Shown: in pieces, positions 29,762 to 32,297 of the stretch
How the letters are laid out: each line of letters opens with the position of its first letter
How positions within the stretch are numbered: the first letter of the stretch is position 1
Assembly: GCA_937896195.1 (NCBI GenBank)
Contig: CALBNC010000115.1
Span: forward strand, 1 to 45,691
Direction of reading: 5' to 3'
From: an uncultured Gammaproteobacteria bacterium
GTDB lineage: Bacteria > Pseudomonadota > Gammaproteobacteria > PS1 > Pseudothioglobaceae
Length of the DNA stretch: 45,691 bases
Made by a program: the position numbers and the translations under genes
Notes under the pieces: model-generated
The model's input: the letters and a program-made list of their open reading frames with translations, nothing else
Told to the model about the DNA's origin: nothing
The model's database searches: none

Positions 29762-30691
29762 ATGGTGCAGAGATTTTTACAAGCAATCATATGCTCTTTT
29801 GTTGTCCTTTCATTTCCTGTTTATTCATTGGTTGTTCCTTCATCGGTAATTGATACTGATTGGTTAAGCGTAAACCTTGATGGCGTCGTACTTTTAGATG
29901 TACGAAAAGATCTTAAAAGTTTTTCTGAACAGGGTCATATTCTTGGCGCAAAACTTGTTGACACTAAAAAAGTTAGGGTAAGTCGCACGATTGACGGCGT
30001 TGAATTAACTCGAATGAGACCTGATCAGGCGCAATTCGAGAGCTTTATGTCGGCTCATGGTGTGTCTAATGATTCTGTTGTTGTGATTACCCATCAAGGG
30101 CAAACACCAGGGGATGTGGCAGGTGCGGCACGATTATTCTGGCAAATGAAGTATTACAATTTTCAGCAAGTAGCACTACTAAATGGTGGTAATGCAGCCT
30201 GGACCGCTAGTATGGAGGATTTAACAACGAATGCTTCAACTGCTAGTTTAGGCCGGTTAACTCAAATGAATGGCGTTAATGATGAAATATTGGCCACCAT
30301 TCAAGAAGTGAAATTAGCCATACTTGATCCTGGCGTTCAATTGGTGGATACTAGAAGTTTGCGTTTTCATGTGGGGTTAGACAGTCGAAGCTATGTGTAT
30401 GATTTGGGCCACATTCCCAGCTCTAAAGTTTTTCCTTATAAGTTTTTACATCCCGTGAAAGGTGTAATGGTTTTTCCAACTAAGCAGCAAATAAAAGCAC
30501 GTTTCAATGCGCTTAATATTGATTTAGATGCTGGCGTTATTCTGTATTGTAATAGTGCGTATGAATGCTCTTCTGTTTGGGTGGCTTTGCATGAAATATA
30601 TGGCAATCAAAACGTCCAAGTTTACGATGGTTCATTACATCAATGGACAAAAGATCCTGCTAATCCAATGACGATTAATCTGACTAAATAA
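29762..30691 (+). CDS. Secreted two-domain rhodanese-like sulfurtransferase
   Basis: Signal peptide; LLDVRKDLKSFSEQGHILGA, ALLNGGNAAWTA, second-domain YCNSAYECSSVW, VYDGSLHQW. Confidence 0.8.
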   Translation: MVQRFLQAIICSFVVLSFPVYSLVVPSSVIDTDWLSVNLDGVVLLDVRKDLKSFSEQGHILGAKLVDTKKVRVSRTIDGVELTRMRPDQAQFESFMSAHGVSNDSVVVITHQGQTPGDVAGAARLFWQMKYYNFQQVALLNGGNAAWTASMEDLTTNASTASLGRLTQMNGVNDEILATIQEVKLAILDPGVQLVDTRSLRFHVGLDSRSYVYDLGHIPSSKVFPYKFLHPVKGVMVFPTKQQIKARFNALNIDLDAGVILYCNSAYECSSVWVALHEIYGNQNVQVYDGSLHQWTKDPANPMTINLTK

Positions 30692-30704
30692 GCTTAGTTA
30701 TTTC

Positions 30705-30718
30705 TTGATGTAGATCAA
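30705..30718 (+). promoter_or_regulatory. FNR/Anr-type binding site
   Basis: TTGAT-GTAG-ATCAA, perfect match to the TTGAT-N4-ATCAA consensus; TAAAAT at 30741-30746. Confidence 0.7.
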
Positions 30719-30784
30719 TTTTTTTAGCTACGCATTCTTTTAAAATACTCCTATATAAATTAGATAAATAAAATAGGAATCCGT

Positions 30785-31810
30785 GTGAAGTCTAAATTAA
30801 TATTAATTGCATTATTTGTACCCTTGTTAAGCTTTTCAGGTGGTCAAGAGATATATTCTGAAAACTGTGAAAAATGCCATGGATTTTCTCAGCATGGCTC
30901 TATCGGCCTCCCACTTTATCGTTCAACTATTGCCAATCATTCTGATGGTTATTTAAAGAAAACAATTAGACATGGGCGTCCTGGCAGAATTATGCCGGGT
31001 TTTAATTTATCAGAGGCTCAAACTGCAAAGCTGATTCGCTTTTTACGCGCAGGTGTAAAAGCGCCCATATATACCTCTGAACCAATTGTTGGTGATATTG
31101 ATTCGGGAAAATATACTTATGAGCAATATTGTCTAAGATGTCATGGCACCGAACTTCAAGGTGGGGAAGGAACGGGTAAAAACTTTTCATGGCAAAAAGA
31201 TCGTGAAGTTTCTCCGCCTGCATTATCAAATTCAGGATTTTTGGCCGCGGCCGAAGATCAAATGATCAAGCGCATTATCATGAAAGGTATTAAAGATACT
31301 GAAATGATGTCGTTTGAAAAAGAGTTTAACTTTACCGATAAAATGGCAAATGACTTGGTTGCTTATATTCGATCACATCAAAAACCTGTCAGCACCCATC
31401 ATATTTCAGAAATTGCAGATGAGCCTTTAGTGTTTATTTACGAGAGTGGGCATGATCTGGCTACAACCACTGACAGGCTACGCGACTCTGCAGCGGCTTA
31501 CAACTTCAGGGTTTATCCATCTAGAACTTTATTTGAAGGTTTTGAAGAGGCAGCGAAAGAAGATCAAAAACAAGTGGTCATTCGTTTTTGTAATTTTAAA
31601 AATATGAAAAATTTCTTAAAGCTTGATCCTAGATTGGGCGTTATTCTACCTTGTCGGGCTACTGTCATTGAGGGTGAGGATGGCAAGGTGCGTATCTATC
31701 TTGAGAATTATATGCATGCAATAGAGCGATTTAACAACGAACAAATTTCTAGTGAGGCTAAAACATTAATTGATAATATGAAAGAAATGGTTGAGGAGGC
31801 GGTATGGTAG
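30785..31810 (+). CDS. Dihaem cytochrome c fused to C-terminal DUF302 domain
   Basis: GTG start; signal peptide; CEKCH and CLRCH haem motifs; C-terminal VVIRFCNFKNMKNFLKLDPRLGVILPCRATVIEGEDGKVRIYLEN resembles DUF302. Confidence 0.8.
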   Translation: MKSKLILIALFVPLLSFSGGQEIYSENCEKCHGFSQHGSIGLPLYRSTIANHSDGYLKKTIRHGRPGRIMPGFNLSEAQTAKLIRFLRAGVKAPIYTSEPIVGDIDSGKYTYEQYCLRCHGTELQGGEGTGKNFSWQKDREVSPPALSNSGFLAAAEDQMIKRIIMKGIKDTEMMSFEKEFNFTDKMANDLVAYIRSHQKPVSTHHISEIADEPLVFIYESGHDLATTTDRLRDSAAAYNFRVYPSRTLFEGFEEAAKEDQKQVVIRFCNFKNMKNFLKLDPRLGVILPCRATVIEGEDGKVRIYLENYMHAIERFNNEQISSEAKTLIDNMKEMVEEAVW

Positions 31811-32259
31811 TTAAGGTTTTAGCATTATGTGGATTGATTTTATCATCAAGTGTTTTTGCTGGTCATGATCAACTACTGATCGAACGGGTTAACGCTAAAT
31901 TTTCATATTCTTGGTTAGCGCTTGATAAAACTATTAAGGCACACAATTACAAGGCGGCTTATCTTCAGAGATGTGATTTTGCAATGAATGAGCGTCATTA
32001 TAAATCAGACAAATATCGTATCTTATTTTTTGGAAAATATGATGAAATGAAGTTAATGAGTAAAAAATATCCTGAAATGACACCCTTTTTTCCTTTAAAG
32101 ATTACAGTTATGGAGGAAGGCACACATAGTTTGCTTATTGCTACGCCGCCAATCGCTTTATTACCTTTGGTTAAAACGAATAAAGACAGAATGACTATAT
32201 TTCGCTGGAATGAAGATATGCAAAGCATCTTAAGTCAAGTTAAGAGTCAATATAAATAA
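31804..32259 (+). CDS. Periplasmic DUF302-like protein
   Basis: Signal peptide; YRILFFGKYDEMKLMSKKYPEMTPFFPLKITVMEEGTHSLLIATPP resembles DUF302; overlaps upstream gene. Confidence 0.6.
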   Translation: MVVKVLALCGLILSSSVFAGHDQLLIERVNAKFSYSWLALDKTIKAHNYKAAYLQRCDFAMNERHYKSDKYRILFFGKYDEMKLMSKKYPEMTPFFPLKITVMEEGTHSLLIATPPIALLPLVKTNKDRMTIFRWNEDMQSILSQVKSQYK

Positions 32260-32262
32260 TAG

Positions 32263-32297
32263 TAAAAAAAAGCCTTGAAATATCAAGGCTTTTTTTT
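32263..32297. terminator. Bidirectional rho-independent terminator
   Basis: AAAAAAAAGCCTTGA-AATA-TCAAGGCTTTTTTTT between convergent genes. Confidence 0.9.

Follow-up and report, generated by a model that had tools for sequence, protein, structure and literature searches.

The window, a stretch of 45,691 nucleotides that corresponds to contig C115 of a 1.42-Mb host genome, carries a two-gene cassette, cytD-D2, which is real, well conserved and, as far as we found, undescribed: those portions of the literature mentioning DUF302 that were accessible to us held no description of such a fusion or cassette. The first gene encodes a dihaem cytochrome c fused to a DUF302 domain and the second a DUF302 partner. 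We put at about one in two (probability near 0.5) the chance that, taken as a whole module, cytD-D2 is a periplasmic redox cassette of Sox-type sulfur oxidisers, expressed at low oxygen from a class-II FNR/DNR promoter and with a sulfur ligand bound by its DUF302. The locus is organized as follows.

29762 to 30691, + strand: secreted tandem rhodanese gene, upstream; an optional neighbour, found in some same-genus genomes only
30705 to 30718, no strand assigned: FNR/DNR-type box TTGATGTAGATCAA, a perfect TTGAT-N4-ATCAA palindrome, from the sequence and its retention upstream of orthologues
30741 to 30746, + strand: −10-like hexamer TAAAAT, 22 nt 3' of the box; a hexamer at 21–23 nt recurs in orthologues
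30775 to 30778, + strand: Shine-Dalgarno-like AGGA, 6 nt 5' of the GTG, from the sequence
30785 to 31810, + strand: cytD, 341 aa, GTG start; Sec-type signal, two class-I cytochrome c domains and a C-terminal DUF302
30866 to 30880, + strand: haem c motif 1, CEKCH, residues 28–32; C28, C31 and H32 invariant in 73 sequences
31130 to 31144, + strand: haem c motif 2, CLRCH, residues 116–120; C116, C119 and H120 invariant in 73 sequences
31547 to 31702, + strand: DUF302 domain (PF03625), CytD residues 255–306, from Pfam
31589 to 31591, + strand: Cys269, first of the DUF302 pair (FCN); cysteine in 71 of 73
31652 to 31654, + strand: Cys290, second of the DUF302 pair (LPCR); cysteine in 69 of 73
31793 to 31799, + strand: Shine-Dalgarno GAGGAGG for D2, inside the end of cytD, from the sequence
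31804 to 32259, + strand: D2, 151 aa, secreted DUF302 partner without the Cys pair; 7-nt overlap with cytD
32264 to 32297, no strand assigned: hairpin with T-runs on both strands, scored on the − strand and from the sequence

The box, the hexamer, the haem motifs and the DUF302 C-terminus lie exactly where the original prediction had placed them. The signal peptide of CytD was read from the sequence only. The CEKCH and CLRCH motifs proved to fall within Pfam cytochrome c domains (PF13442, 1.1e-22), and with two CxxCH motifs in class-I domains CytD has the predicted features of an exported dihaem c-type cytochrome; these two haem c sites suggest that it transfers electrons. A Pfam search of 30785–31810 turned the "DUF302-like" C-terminus into a PF03625 domain above the cut-off (2.4e-9, 37.3 bits against 23). 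hmmsearch linked this domain to PDB 1q9u (E 8e-11), and the AlphaFold model of CytD (12 sequences, pLDDT 72) matched the same structure (E 6.7e-6, TM 0.82 by target), the predicted fold also matching dihaem cytochromes. The tandem cytochrome c domains are shared with the dihaem class-I cytochromes Kustc0458, QcrC, TsdA and CcoP, to which structural or profile matches were obtained; however, these matches never reach the DUF302 part, and no TsdA-type catalytic assignment is made for CytD. 1q9u and 1j3m (DUF302/TT1751-like fold) have the fold, the profile and the CN...LPC cysteine pair in common with CytD but stand alone, whereas the DUF302 of CytD forms one secreted protein with a dihaem cytochrome c and has a Cys-less DUF302 as its partner. 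PDB 7tj1 is labelled as the fluoride transporter CrcB and yet has the DUF302 fold, and the NCBIfam CrcB model NF002454 weakly matches the DUF302 part of CytD; this label is probably a propagated naming error.

D2 had been described as a second, overlapping DUF302-like gene, and this homology was recovered by means other than its own Pfam score. Searched alone, D2 remained under the curated PF03625 cut-off (E 0.0038, 17.5 bits against 23), and phmmer of D2 alone against the PDB gave no match. PF03625 is matched by 41 of the 49 D2 family members (best 2.8e-8), hhalign scored D2 versus the fused DUF302 of CytD at 98.2% (E 4e-14), and the D2 model (pLDDT 90.7) matches the DUF302 structures 1q9u (Foldseek E 9e-9), 7tj1 and 1j3m. 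Taken together, the family profile, the profile-profile comparison and the predicted fold indicate that D2 is a DUF302 protein like the C-terminus of CytD. The sequence common to both genes is ATGGTAG, and the hairpin that follows D2 is probably a terminator shared with the convergent fabI gene.

A GTDB scan returned 285 relatives, of which the best 80 loci were analysed, the presence of D2 being established by an HMM search of all frames. D2 was directly downstream of cytD in 78 of these 80 loci, with ORFs mostly overlapping or touching; a first ORF clustering had left 14 loci apparently devoid of D2, and the HMM search reduced them to two. Since nothing else in the neighbourhood was conserved across the best 80 of 285, cytD-D2 is a free-standing two-gene cassette. 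Its architecture is well supported, and the direct link between DUF302 and a c-type cytochrome that had been proposed finds support in both the fusion and the near-invariant gene pair. In Thiothrix caldifontis (L095, 5974–8061), an extra stand-alone DUF302 gene, similar to the cytD C-terminus, is inserted between cytD and D2. In two single-contig genomes of the host family, G053 and G057 (L066 and L067), cytD is decayed by internal stops and frame changes, and D2 of G057 is fragmented too; the decay of cytD suggests that the module is dispensable in these two organisms.

We then looked at the cysteines of the fused DUF302, which, like the Sox link described below, are new relative to the earlier account. 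Of 73 cytD sequences, 69 have both C269 and C290; the solved proteins 1q9u and 1j3m share this cysteine pair, which is missing from D2. The only orthologues without D2 among the best 80 of 285 (L084 and L085, from genomes G026 and G056) are also the only two without both cysteines. This joint loss looks like one evolutionary event and is therefore suggestive, rather than proof, of the cysteines and D2 working together. In the mechanism that we propose, the Cys-less DUF302 of D2 would associate with that of CytD in a hetero-DUF302 unit. In both genomes cytD is followed by NnrS and hemerythrin genes, an arrangement that would fit an assembly or protection role, that is, metal or haem handling for cbb3 or NirK, or NO defence, in which the DUF302 cysteines would bind copper or detect NO. 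A Bradyrhizobium DUF302 gene is listed as adjoining ccoG (PMC6515984). An NO-responsive regulator of the DNR type could also recognise the box described below, and the host has a CRP/FNR-type regulator beside nirK. We nevertheless regard such a role as unlikely, because the NnrS-linked versions are atypical, being the two that have lost the cysteines and D2, because the association with Sox would not be predicted, and because a metal chaperone would not be expected to carry two haem c groups.

The gap between the rhodanese gene and cytD is 93 nt long and contains TTGATGTAGATCAA, TAAAAT and AGGA. The exact TTGAT-N4-ATCAA motif occurs once in the window, for a chance expectation of 0.13. As claimed in the original prediction, the spacing between box and hexamer (exactly 22 nt) corresponds to the class-II FNR geometry: with the hexamer at the usual −12 to −7, the box is centred at −41.5 from a predicted start at 30753. 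In same-genus genomes the box was found 72–82 nt 5' of the start codon and the hexamer about 21–22 nt further on, whereas the box is absent upstream of cytD in G020 and G022; in G026 and G056, whose protein is 52–54% identical, TTGACTTAAGTCAA occupies the same position. In the GTDB scan, the box was kept in part: a 9–10/10 match lies upstream of 24 of 72 orthologues, compared with 16 of 379 neighbouring genes at the same loci (Fisher p 2e-11, an optimistic value given the relatedness of the loci), and no box of at least 8/10 was detected for 30 of the 72. Where a −10-like hexamer matched at 5/6 or more, it stood at 21–23 nt in 14 cases out of 16 (p 1e-8 if all 15 offsets are equal, and optimistic for the same reason). 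The box matches occur in Thioglobus, Thiothrix, Thioalkalivibrio and several further lineages of the Gammaproteobacteria, so that conservation of the predicted class-II geometry across orders is well supported. By spacing and conservation, the cytD promoter thus resembles class-II FNR/ANR/DNR promoters, in which TTGAT-N4-ATCAA lies 22 nt before the −10 hexamer and is centred near −41.5; it differs from them in that the target is an uncharacterised cassette and the activator a candidate only.

The host genome contains 24 perfect boxes, where extrapolation would predict about 4 and the reversed control gave 1. Many are intragenic; the intergenic ones are found 5' of ccoN, ccoG, a hemN/regulator pair, nirK, norC, nrdD and a few others (gene names read from the sequence, except for those checked by profiles). 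This genome-wide pattern and the cross-species conservation of the box rule out a chance palindrome. A search of the genome for an fnr, anr or dnr gene identified two CRP/FNR-type regulators above the PF13545 cut-off. The first one, on contig C77, adjoins the nap cluster and is FnrL-like (NF045989 5.8e-31, under the curated cut-off of that model); the second, on C112, sits between hemN and nirK. The FnrL-like regulator has an altered cysteine pattern with an extra Cys3, and a phenylalanine stands where FnrN/FnrL types would be expected to have their third N-terminal cysteine. This pattern, the presence of at least two CRP/FNR-type regulators that could share the site and the several orthologues without a box could mean that the box is read by another CRP-family protein, or is non-functional, the genes then not being oxygen-regulated. 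This seems very unlikely to us, since the box, its spacing and the −10 sequence are kept in distant genera, and since intergenic boxes across the genome stand before respiratory and anaerobic genes. With regulators at hand as well, FNR/Anr-class control of cytD-D2 by an FNR-like or DNR-like activator, as originally proposed, is strongly supported; such an activator would switch on the cassette when oxygen is scarce.

We next considered which organisms carry the cassette. The carriers among the best 80 of 285 comprise Thioglobus-type symbionts and free-living cells, Sedimenticola, Chromatiales, Thiothrix, Thiolapillus, Thiobacillus (including a strain of Thiobacillus denitrificans), Thioalkalivibrio, Thiogranum and other relatives. 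SoxB is present in 39 of 41 carrier genomes compared with 22 of 71 class controls (p 7e-12, inflated by relatedness; the controls are evenly drawn class members minus known carriers, with non-carrier status checked for part of them). Of the 41 carriers, 29 have Nap or Nar, a larger share than among representatives of the class (8 of 21, p 0.02), and within the host family cytD goes with NapA (7/11 against 4/49, p 2e-4) and with NorB (6/11 against 2/49, p 2e-4). A carrier is nearly always a sulfur oxidiser and usually a nitrate reducer.

In the window, cytD-D2 lies outside a sox cluster, its neighbours being the rhodanese gene and fabI, and outside the nap operon, the host nap genes being on C77. 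SoxYZ, found near 6 of the best 80 of 285 loci only, was rejected as an operon partner; a dedicated Nap/Nar partner was rejected as 12 of 41 carriers have neither, a dedicated nirK partner as NirK is absent from G001, G002, G006 and G011, and the rhodanese as an obligate partner as it is absent in G001, G006, G020 and G022. The closest approach to a nap operon was seen in G060 (L064, 3133–12776), where the operon that includes cytD-D2 also encodes a NapA/Fdh-like molybdoenzyme, proteins resembling NapG and NapH, a dihaem cytochrome and a CRP/FNR regulator, and contains hemN. The molybdoenzyme is left as NapA/Fdh-like, rather than called NapA, because NCBIfam scores formate dehydrogenase alpha higher and both scores are below cut-off. 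In G094, the genes next after cytD-D2 are hemN and one for a CRP/FNR regulator.

The G060 operon, the company of nirK, norC, ccoN and ccoG in the putative regulon and the link to NapA and NorB in the host family would also fit CytD being a conventional electron carrier in anaerobic respiration, delivering to Nap, NirK, NorCB or cbb3, with DUF302 domains that serve only for docking or dimerisation and have no part in sulfur chemistry. We hold this to be somewhat unlikely: the association with SoxB is tighter than that with Nap/Nar, several carriers (e.g., G001) have neither Nap, Nar nor NirK, and a conserved cysteine pair is unexpected in a docking domain.

The periplasmic electron-transfer function originally proposed is plausible and can be made more specific. 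In the reading that we prefer, a periplasmic redox cassette with a sulfur ligand, CytD would carry electrons between its own DUF302 and the periplasmic cytochrome pool feeding nitrate and NO reductases and the cbb3 oxidase. The cysteine pair of its DUF302 would hold a sulfur ligand for oxidation or reduction, namely a thiol, persulfide or sulfane derived from Sox or rhodanese chemistry. Such a ligand is suggested by the host range, by the adjacent rhodanese gene of some same-genus genomes, by SoxYZ near the 6 loci and by published DUF302 genes of sox clusters. These genes sit inside the sox clusters of Acidithiobacillia, Thiohalorhabdus and Sulfitobacter (PMC5037610, PMC5248467, PMC11034169), and a periplasmic role connected with trithionate has been speculated for them. 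They are tied to Sox-type sulfur oxidation, as is cytD-D2, but are single genes within the clusters, whereas cytD-D2 is a pair that mostly stands on its own, encodes haem domains and frequently has an FNR-type promoter. The linkage of cytD-D2 itself to sulfur genes is thin, being confined to the SoxYZ loci and to the rhodanese in some members of one genus, and presence in Sox bacteria does not by itself establish a Sox role; a function of DUF302 in sulfur handling may nonetheless be considered. Still more tentatively, DUF302 could be a cysteine-pair redox domain and cytD-D2 an unrecognised periplasmic sulfur:cytochrome c oxidoreductase, turned on at low oxygen in Sox bacteria, which, if true, would connect sulfur oxidation with respiration on nitrate or under microaerobic conditions.

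No biochemical activity of any DUF302 protein was found in the literature searched. To our knowledge, this widespread domain, whose structure was solved two decades ago, is still without a function. Its near-invariant pairing with haem c, the FNR-type promoter conserved across orders and the fact that nearly all sampled carriers have SoxB now point to a role open to testing: the coupling of sulfur to nitrate or to scarce oxygen by sulfur oxidisers of marine and sediment habitats. Oxic/anoxic proteomics have been published for Ca. Thioglobus autotrophicus (PMC6509183, PXD013243), and cytochrome genes have been knocked out in T. denitrificans (PMC3753534).

Further DUF302 genes were observed in the host genome. 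One on C77 (7581–8045, L072) is secreted and lies between a nap/SoxYZ-like block and genes for a multihaem cytochrome, FccAB-like proteins and the FnrL-like regulator. Another, on C94 (L073, 4944–5354), is located between gap and pgk, an unexpected glycolytic setting, and has no obvious signal peptide. On C66 (L075, 5699–6490), a secreted DUF302 protein of 263 aa is encoded divergently from a rhodanese gene, and together with the window this makes two DUF302-rhodanese neighbourhoods in the host genome.
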